Source: Anaerolineales bacterium (GTDB taxonomy: Bacteria > Chloroflexota > Anaerolineae > Anaerolineales > E44-bin32). Taken from it: a DNA stretch of 64,000 nucleotides. Below are positions 55,496 through 63,080 of this stretch, piece after piece. The stretch is from the NCBI GenBank assembly GCA_016927115.1, contig JAFGNH010000012.1, positions 28,403 to 92,402 on the forward strand, given 5' to 3'. Numbering within the stretch: the first letter of the stretch is position 1; each line of letters begins with the position of its first letter. The notes beneath the pieces are model-generated. The model did not search any database. It saw nothing but the letters and a program-made list of their open reading frames with translations, and was not told where the DNA came from. Position numbers and translations under genes: made by a program.

Positions 55496-57301
55496 TCATG
55501 TATTATCCCGTGCGTTTTCAATATAAGACAGTGATTGGTGGCGGAAGTATGTGTTGTATAGATCGGCATAGGTGCCGTGCTGCTTCAGCAGTACATCATG
55601 GCAGCCCTCTTCGATGATCCGGCCATGATCCAGAACCAGGATACGGTCTGCAGCGCGCACTGTCGACAGCCTGTGGGCGATCAGGATCGACGTGGTTTTC
55701 GCAAGGATCAGTCCCAGCGCTTCCTGTATCTGTGACTCCGTAAAGGGGTCGATGCTGGCAGTGGCTTCGTCAAGGATAAAGATGGAGGGTTTCTGGATCA
55801 GCACCCGCATCAGGGCTACCAGCTGGCGCTGGCCCATCGATAATCGGCTGCCGCGCTCCCCTGCATATGTCTGCAGGCCATCCGGCAGGGTGGCCACCCA
55901 CTCACCACTTCCAATCTGGTTTGCCAGCGCCTGAATATCATTTTCACTGGCGTCCGGACTGGCATAACGGATGTTCTCAGCCACGGAGGCATCGAACAGG
56001 AACGGAGTCTGGGAAATGATTCCGAGCCGGCGGCGATAGGATGCCAGTTCAAAGGTGCGGATATCCTGTCCGTCGATATGGAGTTTTCCTTCCTGGAACT
56101 CATAAAAACGGGCAACAAGCCGGGCGATGGAGGATTTTCCTGCACCGGTGTGGCCAACCAGGGCGATGTTTTCGCCCGGTTCGATGTGCAGATTAAAATC
56201 CCTCAGCACAGCCTCATGGGGCAGGTATTGGAAATTCAGGTTGCTGAATGTTATTTCCCCGCGCAGGGTTGTCACTGGTTTGGTTTCTGTCTGAATGACT
56301 ACTGGTTCAGCGTCTATCAGGGCAAAAACGCGTTCGGCTGCGGAAAGCCCCTGCTGAATCTGGCTCCAGAACGATGAAAGATTGAGGATCGGGAACCAGA
56401 ACCGGTCCAGGCTGATGGTGAAGAGGTACCAGGCGCCGATGGTAATGGCCCCGGTGGCTGCACGCATACCGCCGGTGTACACCAGGATCGAAGTGCCGAT
56501 ACCACCAATGGCATTCAGGATTGGGAATACCATCGCCAGTGTCAGGCCGCGGCGTATGTTGACCTGGTAGGATTGCTGGTTTACATCCTCGAATTCCTCG
56601 TAAATGGCAGCTTCCTGCCGGAAGTTCTTGGCGACACCGATCCCGGTTACGGCTTCCTTGATCAATGCATTTACGTTGGCCATGACCCGCATGCCCCGCC
56701 GTGTTACCCGCCGGGCCATGGCCCTGAAACCGTAACCAAGCGCTCCTACGGCAGGCAGCATCATGATAACTACAAGGGTGAGTTTGACGTCGATCTGGAT
56801 CAAAACAGCAAACAGAATGATCGACTGCACCATCTGGCTGAAGATATCAGTAAGCAGGACGACGACCTTGGCAAATTCCTGGGTATCAGATGTGATTCTG
56901 GACACGATCCGGCCGGAGGAGAATTCATCGAAAAAGCTCAGATCGTGATGGATGGTTGACTGAAAAGCATTTTCCCGCAGCGCCAGCATCACATCTCCGG
57001 CGACACGAGCCATCATCCTGCGCCGGATCCAGTTCATGCCCCAGATAATTACTCCAAACAGGAACAGGCCGGCAGCTATAACCGGAACAGCAGCGGGATT
57101 ATTATCGTTGAGATAGTCCACACCATTGGACAGCCAGATCGGGGTCAGGGCACTGGCGAAACTCTGCAGGATGATGGCGAGCAGGATGCCGGCCAGCTGT
57201 TTTCCCTTGTGACGGAAATGCACCAGCATACGCATCACAAGTTCCCGGTCACGGTAACTGCGGTCGTACGATTCTTCGGCGAGTCCGGAGAAGAAGCCCA
57301 T
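55496..57301 (-). CDS. ABC exporter half-transporter (TMD-NBD), subunit 2
   Basis: VALVGHTGAGKSSIARLV, signature LSMGQRQLVALMRVL, Walker B IFILDEATASID, H-loop IAHRLST. Start set to MGFFSGLAEESYD at 57301. Confidence 0.93.
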   Translation of the reverse strand: MGFFSGLAEESYDRSYRDRELVMRMLVHFRHKGKQLAGILLAIILQSFASALTPIWLSNGVDYLNDNNPAAVPVIAAGLFLFGVIIWGMNWIRRRMMARVAGDVMLALRENAFQSTIHHDLSFFDEFSSGRIVSRITSDTQEFAKVVVLLTDIFSQMVQSIILFAVLIQIDVKLTLVVIMMLPAVGALGYGFRAMARRVTRRGMRVMANVNALIKEAVTGIGVAKNFRQEAAIYEEFEDVNQQSYQVNIRRGLTLAMVFPILNAIGGIGTSILVYTGGMRAATGAITIGAWYLFTISLDRFWFPILNLSSFWSQIQQGLSAAERVFALIDAEPVVIQTETKPVTTLRGEITFSNLNFQYLPHEAVLRDFNLHIEPGENIALVGHTGAGKSSIARLVARFYEFQEGKLHIDGQDIRTFELASYRRRLGIISQTPFLFDASVAENIRYASPDASENDIQALANQIGSGEWVATLPDGLQTYAGERGSRLSMGQRQLVALMRVLIQKPSIFILDEATASIDPFTESQIQEALGLILAKTTSILIAHRLSTVRAADRILVLDHGRIIEEGCHDVLLKQHGTYADLYNTYFRHQSLSYIENARDNT

Positions 57302-57302
57302 G

Positions 57303-59075
57303 TCAGTCCTCCTCCAGACGAGCGAAGATGCGCTGGTATGCGAGCGAGGTTTCGAGCAGCTGCTCATGTGTGCCCTGTGCTGCAATCTTTCCCCGCCGCA
57401 GTACAAGAATCTGATCAGCCCAGCGGATCTGTGACAGGCGATGGGTGATGATGATTGTGGTGCGGCCTTCAGCCGCCTTGAAGATCGCTTTCTGTATGCG
57501 GTCTTCTGTAGCGCTGTCGATAGCACTTGTAGAGTCGTCCAGGATGAGGATATGGGGATCGGTGAGGAAAGCCCTCGCCAGAGCGATTCGTTGGCGCTGG
57601 CCGCCGGAAAGAGTTACACCTCGTTCACCAACAACGGTTTCATATCCATCATTCAGGTCGAGGATAAAATCGTGTGCCTGTGCCTGGCGGGCGGCTTTTT
57701 CGACATCTGCACGGGTGGCGTCCGGGCATCCGAAGGCGATGTTATCGGCGATCGATCGGGCGAAAAGGAAGATATCCTGTTCAATGATCGAAATGCCGCG
57801 GCGCAGTTTTGCCAGGTTCCAGTCACGGACATCGACCCCGTCCACACGGACAGTGCCTTCGTCCACATCATACGTATGGTTCATCAGGCGGGCGAGGGTG
57901 GTCTTACCGGATCCGGTCTGGCCGACAACAGCAAGGGTTTGCCCTGGCTGCAAGGTAAAACTGATATCGGAAAGCTGGTTGTCCTGTTCACCATAACCGA
58001 ACGAAACATGTTCAAACTCCACAGCACCTTTCATGGGCTGTGAGTAACCTTCCGGATTATCGCCGAATTCTGTTTTATGGGTTATCAGATCCAGAATACG
58101 CCTGGCGCTGGACATACCCAGGGAAATCTGTGAATACGCAAAAATGCTGGCAAACGTCGGGAACCCGAACAGCTCGATGAGGCCGACATAGGCAATGAGA
58201 TCTCCTATACTCATCAAACCCTGCCGGACCAGCAGGTAGCTGTGCAGGAAAGCGCCGGCTGTAGCCAGGCCCTGGAAGAGCAGGGGGACAAAACGGGCTT
58301 CGATTTCGCCCTGCTGAACAAACGCATCACGATAGGCGCGGGCATTGCGTTCAAAAAGGGCTGCTTCTCCCGTTTCCTGCGCATGGCCTTTGACGATTTC
58401 AACACCATCGATTGTTTCCGCCAGCCGGGCATTCAGCTGACCGAACGTGGATCGTACTCTGGCTGTGGTAGGTTTCAGCCTGTGCAGGTAGGATCGCAGA
58501 GCGAGCACATACAGAATGATGAACAGGATCGGGGTAAGGACCAGGCTGGGATGGTAGCGCGGGGCAACGATCAGGGGCATGATCAGGAAATAACCTGACC
58601 CGATTACGAGGTTGAAACCCGGATTGAACATAAAATTGATTTCACGCACGTCGTTTGTCGCCCGGGCCATGGTATCGCCCACAGGTTGTGAGCTGTGGAA
58701 CGCCATACTCTTTCCGAGCAGGCTGGTATACAGCTCCGAACGAATGTCAGCTTCAAGATGCTGTGCGAAAAATTCTGCGCTGCCATTTCGTCCGAACTGC
58801 AGAATTCCGCGGATAATCTGGCTGACTCCGAGAATGATGGAAAGCCGGATCAATTCGGGAATTGGTTCACTGTAGGTAAGTATGGTATTGAAAGCATCAC
58901 CAATAAAAATGGGGACAAGAGCAGCCAGCGCAGCATTGCCAAATGCGCCAACCATCAGGGTGAGAATCAACCACCAATAGCGGCGGATATGCGAAAGGAT
59001 CCACCTGGTTGGCGACCGATAGTCTGAAGTAAAAGGAATGTTGACAGTGAATTCAGAAATACTCACGACGTGCAC
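57303..59075 (-). CDS. ABC exporter half-transporter (TMD-NBD), subunit 1
   Basis: [53 protein letters not shown]. Confidence 0.93.
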
Positions 59076-59300
59076 TTCCTCATCTGATTCTTGCGTGCTG
59101 CAGAATTTCTCCCGTCAGCATACCACAACCAGACAGGCCTGTCAGCGCATAAAGTCCATGAGCCGTTTTTGTGCTATAGTCGGGCTGCAGATCCTGGATG
59201 CAGTCTCTCCGCGGGAAATTGCCAGCCGATTATTTTTTTTATTAAACGCCGTTTACCTGTACAATTCTGTCACAGAATTCACCTCCATCACGTTATAGAT

Positions 59301-61076
59301 ATGAAACTTGAAGAGGAAAATGTGAATAAACCGGATCAAAAGGCTGTTGACCTTGTTCAGCGGGCAATACGTGGAGATCAGGATGCTTTTGCAGATTTAT
59401 TCCACCAATTGAACGAGCCCGTTCTGAACTATGTTTATCGTATGGTTGGGGACCGACCGACAGCGGAGGATATCACACAGGATGCTTTTATTCGAGCACA
59501 CCACCGCATCGATCAGCTTGGTCCCCCCTGGGATTTTAAATCCTGGGTTTATCGTATTGCTGGTAACCTGGCGATAGATCATCTGCGCAAAGCCCGACGA
59601 TTTGTGGATGTGGAGGAGGTCGAATTGATCGGCGATTCAACCACGCGGCGACCACCGGAAAAGAAAACACAGATGGCGGAACAGCGTCAGGCTGTATGGA
59701 GAACGCTGGATGGGATGCCGACTATGTATCGGCAGGCATTGGTACTGCGTGAATTTAATGCACTCTCCTATATTGAACTTTCCAATGCTCTGGAGGTGAG
59801 TTATGACGCTGCCAGGCAGATCGTTCATCGAGCGAGAATCAAATTCAGGGACCTGCACGGGATCCGGATGCTGGCGGAAGAAGCACGACAGCGTTGTTCT
59901 GTGCTTGACGATATGCTCTCGGCATATCACGATGGGGAATTGCCTGAGAGTGATCTGAAACGTGTAAAAAAGCACATGAAAACCTGCAAGGACTGCCAGG
60001 CAACTGAAAAAGAAATGCAGAAGGTCAGTGCCATGCTTGCAGTTATTCCACCGATAATTCCAACGGCTCTCTGGAAGGCTGAAATCCTTGGAGAAATCAC
60101 CCGGCGTGCAGCCGATATTAAAGTTAAACCATCCGATCAACTTTCGAAACCTGGTGTTGACTCCGGTTCTGCTGCAACAGCACAGCCGGGTACTGGAAGC
60201 AGCGTTGCTTCCGCCTTTTCCAAAGCAGCAAATTTTCTCTCGACAGCATGGCCGATGGTTGTTATACCGGTTGTCGGCATCGCTGCAGCTGCAGGTATCT
60301 TTTTGTTTGCCAACCTGCCCCCCGGGAGCCCTGGTGGTTACGGCGGTGGCGCTGAGCCTTCGCCCAGTCCCACTGTGGCATCAGCTGTGCTGCCCCAGGA
60401 TATACAAACACCAGCGCCATCTATGGCGTCTGAGATGGCGCCTTCACCTTCACCTTCGCCCACTGTTACCAGCACGATTACTGCTACGGCTACACTGGAT
60501 CCTGCAAATGCAACCGGCTTGCAGAATGTGAAGTGCCGCTACGGTCCTGACATGGTGTTTGACATCGAAACATATCTGATGAAGGATGAGACCGCACTCA
60601 TCGTGGGACGCAACAACAACGATACCTGGTGGTATATCGAACGCAATGATGGGTATGGCATGTGCTGGGTCTGGGATGGTGTAGTTGAAGTTCGCGGTGA
60701 TCTCAGCCAGGTCTCGTTTGTCGCATCCCCATCCACGCCCACACTCACACCCACACAGGCAGATACCGAAGCCCCACAGGTGGATATTTCCCTGGCCCCT
60801 GATGGAGACGGCCACCCGAATAACCACGATATGATCACGTTTACCGCTTCTGCACAGGATAACCGTGGTGTGGAGAGGATTGAAATCTGGAAAAAATCCG
60901 CTGGAGATGCCACTTTTTCGCTGGCCCATATGTGTACGGGCGTTACTGAATGTATTTACACAGGCGGCCCATATGAATCGGGTATCCTGACTTACCAGGC
61001 ACGGGCATACGATGGAGCAGGTAATGAGGGGTTGACTTTAAAAAAGCAGGTCAATGTGGTCCTTATTATTTATTGA
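59301..61076 (+). CDS. ECF sigma factor fused to zf-HC2 anti-sigma domain, TM helix and extracytoplasmic SH3b-like domain
   Basis: Sigma regions 2 and 4 (DAFADLFHQLNEPVLNYVYRMVGDRPTAEDITQDAFIRAHHRI; YRQALVLREFNALSYIELSNALEVSYDAARQIVHRARIKF), zf-HC2 (LSAYHDGELPESDLKRVKKHMKTCKDCQ), TM (MVVIPVVGIAAAAGIFLF), then CRYGPDMVFDIETYLMKDETALIVGRNNNDTWWYIE. Start 59301. Confidence 0.88.
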   Translation: MKLEEENVNKPDQKAVDLVQRAIRGDQDAFADLFHQLNEPVLNYVYRMVGDRPTAEDITQDAFIRAHHRIDQLGPPWDFKSWVYRIAGNLAIDHLRKARRFVDVEEVELIGDSTTRRPPEKKTQMAEQRQAVWRTLDGMPTMYRQALVLREFNALSYIELSNALEVSYDAARQIVHRARIKFRDLHGIRMLAEEARQRCSVLDDMLSAYHDGELPESDLKRVKKHMKTCKDCQATEKEMQKVSAMLAVIPPIIPTALWKAEILGEITRRAADIKVKPSDQLSKPGVDSGSAATAQPGTGSSVASAFSKAANFLSTAWPMVVIPVVGIAAAAGIFLFANLPPGSPGGYGGGAEPSPSPTVASAVLPQDIQTPAPSMASEMAPSPSPSPTVTSTITATATLDPANATGLQNVKCRYGPDMVFDIETYLMKDETALIVGRNNNDTWWYIERNDGYGMCWVWDGVVEVRGDLSQVSFVASPSTPTLTPTQADTEAPQVDISLAPDGDGHPNNHDMITFTASAQDNRGVERIEIWKKSAGDATFSLAHMCTGVTECIYTGGPYESGILTYQARAYDGAGNEGLTLKKQVNVVLIIY

Positions 61077-61190: not shown

Positions 61191-63080
61191 ATGATATCGC
61201 TGAAACACTCCCATTTGTATACCCTTGCAGGACTCATTCTTCTGGCGTTTCTTGTTTCATCCTGTGACCTTCCGGCACCTGGTGATGTCTGCAGTGGTGC
61301 GGAACTGCAAAAGGTTGAGTTGATATCACCCGCCGATTTCGAAAGTGTGGGAACCAGCCTGCCAACGCTTTCGTGGAATATGCCAGGCGATTGTGATCCC
61401 GGCTCATATACCATCCAGCTGGCCAAGGATCGGGATATGACGGTGGATTTGCTGGAGGTCACGATCGATCATCCAACCACAACGTGGGCAATTCCCGGCC
61501 CGCTGGAAAATGCTGCGGAATACTGGTGGCAGGTGAAAGCGAATGTCGAGGAAGGGGGAACACTGGTAAGCGGGCAATATTCAAACCGCTGGCGGTTCTA
61601 CTACGGACCGACCTGTGATCCGGCTCACCAGACCAACCCTGTCCTGGTATGGCCTGTGGATGGCGAGACGATCGATACCGTGCTGCCCCTGCTTGAATGG
61701 AGCTATCCATATGGCCCAGGCTGTCTGCCCGGCGGATACCGGATTGAGCTTTCCACAGACCCGGGATTGGTGGATGTGGGATTGAATGGCGGGACCGGAA
61801 ATCCAAGCACAAAATGGCTGCCGGGAGACGATCTGGTCGACTGCACCAGCTACTACTGGCGTGTGGCACCGATAGTCGATATTGCTCTGGGGCCCTATTC
61901 TGAAAGCCGCAGCTTCTTTATAGACACCGCGGGGTCCTGTGCTGCATCTCCTGCAGGATCTCTGGGAGGTTTTGTTTTTCACGATCTCTGTGCAGTTCCA
62001 TACAGTTCGGATGCTCCTGCACCGGATGGCTGTGTGGACCTGCCGGATGGCGGCATGATTGCTAATGGTATCTATGAGGAAGGTGAACCCGGCCTGGAAG
62101 GGGTCACCGTTCGGCTGGCTGAGGGTTCATGCCCGGGCACTGATACCGGATTGACTGCACTCAGTGCGGCGGACGGCTCGTATTCCTTTGAAGGCCTTTC
62201 CGCCGGAACGTTTTGTCTATCTATAAATGCCCTTGGTGATGGAAACGATCTGGTACTGATCCCGGGTGGGTGGACCTATCCGGAGAGTGGGGATGAGCCC
62301 ATTATGCAGGAGGTTACCCTTGGTGCGGGTGAGAGTAATCTGGAGGTTCACTTCGGTTGGGATTACCAGTTCCTGCCTTCACCGGCAGCCTCTGAGCCTT
62401 CCGAACCAATGGTGAAGGCACTTCAAAACGCACACTGCCGCTATGGCCCTGATCGTGATGCCTGGGATGATATGGCCTTCCTGATGGAAGGAGAAACTAC
62501 CGTTGTCGAAGGGCGCCTGGCGGATAATTCCTGGTTCTATGTGCAGAATCCCACCGGAAGCGGATTCTGCTGGATAACCGCGGGTGTTCTCGAGTTTATT
62601 GGACCTGTATTAGAAACCAAGATCGTTGCAGCGCCGGCATTTGAGCTCGCTGATGGCGGCATCAGGGGCAAGGTATGGCATGATCTCTGTGCCCCGCCCT
62701 GGCTGTATGAGGGCACACCGCCCCCGCCTCCTGAAGGTTGTATCTCCACCGGCGGTGGTGGCATGACTGCCAATGGCGTGCTGGAAAGCGGTGAACCGGG
62801 TATTTCAGGTGTCGCAGTCTATCTTGGAAGCGGCTCGTGCAATTCGACAGGGCTTGCGACGGCATACACCAACTCCAATGGTACCTATGAATTCAGCGGA
62901 TTGGCCCCGGGAACATACTGTGTCACCGTTCAGGTGACTCCCAATGCGAATGTGCTGATCCCGGGCGGGTTCAGTTATCCAGCGGTTAATGGAGATACTG
63001 CTTCTCATACTGTTACGGTCACCGCCGGAAATACCACCACCGGTGTGAGCTTTGGCTGGGATTTCCAGTTTGCACCGTAG
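61191..63080 (+). CDS. Secreted lipoprotein with FN3-like pair, SH3b-like domain and two SdrD-B-like domains
   Basis: Lipobox LLAFLVSSCDLPAPG. Duplicated Ig/FN3-like modules (LPTLSWNMPGDCDPGSYTIQLAKD / LPLLEWSYPYGPGCLPGGYRIELSTD). Two GxVxHDLCA..GxxxANGxxExGEPGxxGVxVxLxxGSC modules. CRYGPDRDAWDDMAFLMEGETTVVEGRLADNSWFYVQ. Confidence 0.85.
   Translation: MISLKHSHLYTLAGLILLAFLVSSCDLPAPGDVCSGAELQKVELISPADFESVGTSLPTLSWNMPGDCDPGSYTIQLAKDRDMTVDLLEVTIDHPTTTWAIPGPLENAAEYWWQVKANVEEGGTLVSGQYSNRWRFYYGPTCDPAHQTNPVLVWPVDGETIDTVLPLLEWSYPYGPGCLPGGYRIELSTDPGLVDVGLNGGTGNPSTKWLPGDDLVDCTSYYWRVAPIVDIALGPYSESRSFFIDTAGSCAASPAGSLGGFVFHDLCAVPYSSDAPAPDGCVDLPDGGMIANGIYEEGEPGLEGVTVRLAEGSCPGTDTGLTALSAADGSYSFEGLSAGTFCLSINALGDGNDLVLIPGGWTYPESGDEPIMQEVTLGAGESNLEVHFGWDYQFLPSPAASEPSEPMVKALQNAHCRYGPDRDAWDDMAFLMEGETTVVEGRLADNSWFYVQNPTGSGFCWITAGVLEFIGPVLETKIVAAPAFELADGGIRGKVWHDLCAPPWLYEGTPPPPPEGCISTGGGGMTANGVLESGEPGISGVAVYLGSGSCNSTGLATAYTNSNGTYEFSGLAPGTYCVTVQVTPNANVLIPGGFSYPAVNGDTASHTVTVTAGNTTTGVSFGWDFQFAP

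Follow-up and report, generated by a model that had tools for sequence, protein, structure and literature searches.

We describe a single open reading frame from an Anaerolineales bacterium that joins an ECF sigma factor, a zf-HC2 anti-sigma zinc domain, a predicted transmembrane (TM) helix and an extracytoplasmic domain in one chain (Table 1; the window is the whole stretch of 64,000 nucleotides that was analysed). This protein is likely to be an autoregulated, membrane-anchored one-component ECF sigma factor controlling surface lipoproteins, in which the zinc domain would inhibit the sigma domains in cis and from which these would be released by proteolysis. The argument starts from what can be read in the DNA, i.e. 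the fusion, its conservation, a conserved promoter element, the co-occurrence of gene and element, and the type of gene that follows the element.

Table 1 Features of the fused gene and its neighbourhood (positions in the window).
Feature	Position	Strand	Evidence or remark
Fused ECF sigma / zf-HC2 anti-sigma / TM / ectodomain protein	59301..61076	+	591 aa; open frame
Sigma70 region 2, residues 33-100	59397..59600	+	Pfam PF04542, 3.7e-16
Sigma70 region 4 (Sigma70_r4_2), residues 129-181	59685..59843	+	Pfam PF08281, 5.1e-7
zf-HC2 anti-sigma zinc domain, residues 199-233	59895..59999	+	Pfam PF13490, 4.9e-10
Single hydrophobic segment, predicted TM helix, about residues 312-330	60234..60290	+	Kyte-Doolittle scan
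Pro/Ser/Thr-rich extracytoplasmic linker	60333..60509	+	Sequence
SH3b-like domain, signature CRxGP and second conserved Cys	60516..60710	+	SH3_3 in orthologues, weak
Ig-like domain (Big_7-like), two conserved Cys	60762..61073	+	Big_7 in orthologues, weak; alignment
Predicted ECF promoter TGTCACA-N16-CGTT, autoregulatory	59268..59294	+	Conserved upstream of orthologues
TGCTATAGTC, housekeeping -10-like element	59172..59181	+	Exact in 5/8 same-family upstream regions
Lipoprotein with Ig-like, SdrD_B and SH3b-like modules	61191..63080	+	Pfam; SH3b-like segment by alignment
ABC exporter half, divergent, conserved neighbour	57303..59075	-	Pfam; same arrangement in L031, L032, L034
Second ABC exporter half, conserved neighbour	55496..57526	-	Pfam; synteny

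A preliminary description of this DNA had placed sigma regions 2 and 4, a zf-HC2 motif, one TM helix and a linked ectodomain in one frame, and had proposed a domain search for Sigma70_r2, Sigma70_r4_2 and zf-HC2. Pfam, the Kyte-Doolittle scan and the 591-residue frame bear this composition out, and the matches to all three domains exceeded the curated Pfam cut-offs (39.8 bits compared to 22.2 for zf-HC2). The sigma part scored 90.7 bits against NCBIfam TIGR02937 (cut-off 42.9) and shows the layout of an ECF sigma factor, with regions 2 and 4 only and regions 3 and 1.1 absent according to Pfam and NCBIfam. The H-x3-C-x2-C motif noticed earlier was confirmed as H225, C229 and C232, and C199 could be added as fourth ligand. 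Together with the TM helix downstream, C199 plus H225-x3-C229-x2-C232 gives the class I (zf-HC2/ZAS) pattern, and the four residues are invariant in an alignment of 13 diverse fused homologues. The ectodomain contains cysteines; its Pfam names are weak and come from orthologues only, with SH3_3 found in four of six (best 0.0017, under the gathering cut-off) and Big_7 in three of six (best 0.0033). By Pfam, neither the window protein nor the orthologues have a carbohydrate-binding module, and the window protein has no SnoaL domain. AlphaFold models were obtained for the cytoplasmic part (pLDDT 62, pTM 0.39; too poor for judging a contact in cis) and the ectodomain (pLDDT 48), and a PDB search with the cytoplasmic model returned sigma factors, including SigW from the RsiW complex, at low TM-scores. 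Because of these pLDDT values and TM-scores, models and matches were set aside as evidence.

An assembly or sequencing error might have joined two overlapping genes, and separate sigma and zf-HC2 genes abutting in frame (rows with one internal stop) are indeed frequent among members of the class. Such an error is hardly conceivable, since independent genomes preserve the fused frame, both within the family and in further families of the order as well as in other lineages of the phylum. Within the family, five full-length fused orthologues of 582-624 aa are 41-47% identical overall, and contig-edge fragments of the fused gene were found in further genomes, including the sole other genome of the genus. 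The earlier statement that no frameshift is visible is borne out by the intact frames in five other family genomes. These fused orthologues rule out an assembly artefact and dispose of both grounds on which the preliminary description would have given up the fusion, namely a sequencing error and the absence of the fused frame from relatives. An internal start dividing the sigma from the zinc part was rejected as well, as the linker contains no conserved start residue in the orthologue alignment, inspected by eye. Fusion is not the default in the window's genome, since the remaining two zf-HC2 proteins are encoded by separate genes, each beside a separate sigma gene. Many sigma/zf-HC2 pairs across the class are adjacent genes with a stop between them, and their recovery shows that our search detects both the fused and the separate state.

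Profile searches covering the class, the phylum and the order returned fused single frames from many families; the profile was built from fused proteins, so the sample favours fused rows. The fused proteins are of two types, a membrane type with a length of about 440-730 aa and a soluble type whose chain stops shortly after the zinc finger. In a tree of the sigma part only, 39 of them (21 membrane, 18 soluble) formed one clade with a support of 97/89, and separate sigma factors fell outside this main clade. The fused proteins of f113, with WP_012642865.1 of Thermomicrobium roseum, and those of f120 lie apart from it, so judging from this tree fusion probably arose more than once. The sole actinobacterial fusion in the tree, from Embleya (L079), sits on a branch of 4.5 units. 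The ectodomains differ by lineage: SH3b-like/Ig in f1, N_BRCA1_IG in L051, SdrD_B in L127 and a weak BACON-like match in L106, while the actinobacterial L079 has a CAP domain.

Eight upstream regions of the same family have a common CTGTCACA, with TGTCACA, 16 nt and CGTT located 6-16 nt 5' of the start codon, and a ninth locus (G013) carries TGTCACA-N16-CGTT at the same position. In the window and in every readable same-family locus, the element stands directly 5' of the start codon; other families show the same layout as TGTAAC[A/T/C]-N16-CGTT. Under a single rule for all groups, 17 of the 21 membrane-type fused genes in the main clade carried the element, where shuffled sequences predict 0.03. 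It was absent from all 38 separate sigma genes, all 18 soluble fused genes and all 11 genes of other fused groups. The rule was written after the motif had been seen in fused genes and, for this reason, the control groups rather than the 17 of 21 are the test. The -35 base differs by lineage, with TGTCACA in f1 and f14 and TGTAAC in f7, f8, f24 and f64, and a Cys-x-Tyr stretch in region 4.2 is present in both C-form families (f1, f14) and absent from the A-form families. In this small sample, such covariation of the -35 element with region 4.2 would fit recognition by the fused sigma factor itself. The true N-terminus of the window protein is uncertain: the ATG at 59301 lies only 6 nt past the predicted -10 CGTT, so transcripts from the ECF promoter would be either leaderless or translated from the GTG at 59322, which is preceded by GAAGAGGA and may serve as start in this case.

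The exact motif TGTCACA-N16-CGTT occurred at 51 sites in the ten family genomes with the fused gene (reversed control 7) compared to 5 sites in the fifteen family genomes without it (reversed control 4); the site counts differ with a Mann-Whitney p of about 1e-5, the genomes being related and the counts not independent. The 50 distinct sites in the ten genomes comprise 9 before the fused sigma gene, 38 before secreted or lipoprotein genes and 3 others, whereas none of the five sites in the fifteen genomes precedes a sigma gene or a secreted or lipoprotein gene. This assignment of genes to sites is our own reading and was not blind, as script flags were combined with inspection of the N-termini. 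In one genome (G009), 14 of 15 sites lie before secreted or lipoprotein genes and the remaining one before the sigma gene. Recurrent products behind the sites are CSLREA/beta-helix proteins, NBR1-Ig lipoproteins, Ig-like lipoproteins and a further lipoprotein family, of which a single member was scanned and proved to have an SdrD_B tail. The window's genome has 6 sites against 4 in the controls, which is no excess by count alone; the case for a regulon is built on the related genomes and on what the genes following the sites encode. Its sites lie before a run of three CSLREA genes (C1), an SdrD_B lipoprotein gene (C84), a lipoprotein gene (C6), a gene for a secreted CBM_11 protein (C60) and the fused gene, and inside a longer frame (C99). 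The run on C1 of this genome (G000; L208, 987-9134) encodes its three CSLREA/beta-helix proteins in tandem; all of them have two hydrophobic segments in the central part and an SH3b-like module at the C-terminus.

It is quite unlikely that another sigma factor reads TGTCACA-N16-CGTT and that the fused gene is merely one of its targets. ECF41 sigma factors do read the similar TGTCACA-n16-CGTC (PMC3426412), and two draft genomes, G002 and G025 (86% and 83% complete), carry such sites while the fused gene was not found in them; in G002, the sites lie before secreted genes, which speaks for a different reader. Against this, the excess of sites tracks the fused gene and the -35 variants track the fused clade across several families. 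An ECF41 sigma factor was rejected as this other reader, since no ECF41 protein (TIGR02957) scored above the cut-off in the 12 genomes searched.

The gene right after the fused gene encodes a lipoprotein in all seven readable same-family loci, the window included, and five of these lipoproteins contain the SH3b-like module; in the window, the two genes probably form one operon. At their ends, the three CSLREA proteins of C1 carry the CRxGP SH3b-like module that is also present in the sensor, and a target lipoprotein in G007 combines SdrD_B, SH3_3-like and Big_7 domains. In the window's genome, module and motif showed no general link; it was limited to the C1 run and the lipoprotein adjoining the fused gene. 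As the module is common among the secreted proteins of this genome and most other carriers lack the element, the connection of sensor and targets by a shared module is suggestive only. The ABC exporter pair at 55496-59075, which is kept in L031, L032 and L034, is a possible functional partner of the fused gene.

We propose that the fused sigma factor reads the element, is inhibited in cis and is freed by proteolysis in response to an outside signal. The zf-HC2 domain, C-terminal to the sigma domains, would bind these in cis and keep them off RNA polymerase, while the TM helix would anchor the protein in the membrane and the SH3b-like/Ig-like ectodomain would report on the cell surface. An outside signal would elicit regulated proteolysis, by a site-2 protease followed by cytosolic clearance of the zinc domain. 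The free sigma factor would then read TGTCACA-N16-CGTT, raise its own synthesis and act on the genes for CSLREA/beta-helix proteins, SdrD_B lipoproteins, NBR1-Ig lipoproteins and the adjoining lipoprotein. The -10-like element TGCTATAGTC (59172-59181) could give basal expression, with the ECF element serving as amplifying loop. The earlier conclusion that a tethered sigma factor must either be freed or act at the membrane is upheld; we infer both release and activity.

Some one-component regulators, those of the CadC type, act while still in the membrane, and by analogy an outside ligand could shift the zinc domain without any cleavage, the sigma part recruiting RNA polymerase while membrane-bound. 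In favour of this, no cleavage site is evident in the sequence, and zinc finger and TM helix are separated by a long, flexible stretch rich in Gly, Ser and Pro. Site-2 protease genes (Peptidase_M50) are present in the window's genome, which speaks for cleavage, although these proteases are near universal in bacteria. We consider action without cleavage unlikely, as the known membrane fusions of sigma and anti-sigma factor and the class I anti-sigma factors use proteolysis (PMC8999054). Class I anti-sigma factors sequester their sigma factor through zf-HC2 domains, proteolysis has been shown experimentally for the fusion IutY (ECF243), which is cut by Prc and RseP, and truncation data for SCO4117 were taken as support for release (PMC8999054, PMC5826349).

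In the soluble sister clade, which has no TM helix and whose proteins end soon after the finger, the finger can act without a membrane signal. Instead of being inhibitory, the finger of the window protein could serve as a redox or metal switch that the sigma factor requires for activity, comparable to the Cys-rich tail of CorE-type sigma factors. This is decidedly improbable, given that the zinc domain of the window protein belongs to the zf-HC2 family with profile matches to the anti-sigma chains of ChrR (6e-4) and RsiW (0.004), and that TM helix and ectodomain in the membrane clade point to an outside signal. The sister clade itself (L096-L103 and L107-L116, from f85, f75 and f88 genomes; fused sigma-zf-HC2 without TM, ending right after the finger) possibly consists of redox- or metal-sensing one-component sigma factors.

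Fusion and tethering, as put forward in the preliminary description, stood; this kind of protein has precedents, however, since the architecture is already known from the actinobacterial groups ECF48, ECF52 and ECF53 and from IutY (PMC8999054, PMC5826349). The conserved promoter and the predicted regulon, to which the preliminary description did not extend, tell more than the architecture. The ECF52 protein SCO4117 of Streptomyces likewise combines sigma2-sigma4, zinc finger and TM helix with a Pro-rich stretch plus an ectodomain in a single polypeptide, for which autoregulation and proteolytic release were proposed (PMC5826349, PMC8999054). ECF52, which was called exclusive to Actinobacteria (PMC5826349), ends in a carbohydrate-binding module, whereas the window protein comes from Chloroflexota, ends in SH3b-like/Ig-like domains and has surface lipoproteins as predicted targets. 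In ECF48 and ECF53, set beside the window protein by description, sigma is also fused to a zinc finger on its C-terminal side and to one or two TM helices, but these groups are actinobacterial. In IutY of Pseudomonas putida, sigma is fused to a membrane anti-sigma factor as well, but the protein serves iron-starvation cell-surface signalling for the xenosiderophore aerobactin, and no zf-HC2 domain is named for it (PMC8999054). In SigI/RsgI of Clostridium thermocellum, the surface sensor module recurs in an induced protein (RsgI6 GH10, Xyn10D; PMC4711584), but SigI and RsgI are not fused to each other, and the RsgI modules bind polysaccharides. ECF41 sigma factors have a similar promoter, TGTCACA-n16-CGTC, and likewise carry a regulatory domain fused at the C-terminus (PMC3426412). 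This domain is SnoaL-like, however, and the protein is soluble with other targets; the resemblance is limited to the promoter, in which the window element has T for C as the last base. The cytoplasmic part of the window protein is collinear, in a single tblastn piece, with two adjacent genes of Anoxybacillus for the class I zf-HC2 pair SigW/RsiW, which is made of two proteins.

Membrane-anchored sigma/anti-sigma fusions have been described mainly in Actinobacteria and have hardly been studied. What appears to be new is the Chloroflexota clade with its predicted circuit and targets; the literature searched, to which the ECF reclassification (10.1093/nar/gkaa1229) did not belong, contained no report of a fused ECF/anti-sigma factor in Chloroflexi or Anaerolineae. 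We give even chances to the broader reading that Chloroflexota possess widespread self-amplifying, membrane-tethered sigma receptors with swappable ectodomains on one conserved cytoplasmic core, most of which would recognise their own TGT[C/A]AC-N16-CGTT, and that at least one lineage would sense its surface with a module of the induced surface proteins. Here, a large fused clade in a mostly uncultured phylum comes with a predicted target promoter that is visible in the sequence, so that a heterologous host would suffice for testing the circuit and the organism itself is not needed. The clade offers a first handle on the control of Anaerolineae lipoproteins and CSLREA-type surface proteins, and the natural series of separate pair, soluble fusion and membrane fusion with swapped sensors bears on how two-protein switches become one.

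Three further observations concern individual fused proteins. The megaplasmid of Thermomicrobium roseum (NC_011961.1; L048, 2965-4275) encodes a fused sigma/zinc-finger/TM protein outside the main clade, WP_012642865.1, annotated merely as RNA polymerase sigma factor; being an isolate sequence, it is a candidate for experiments. In Embleya sp. NBC_00888 (L079, 1985-4042), the sigma fusion continues through a TM helix into a C-terminal CAP domain (PF00188, 1.9e-23). A single genome (G772, contigs C21, C3 and C6) carries three paralogous fused sigma receptors of 469-488 aa.
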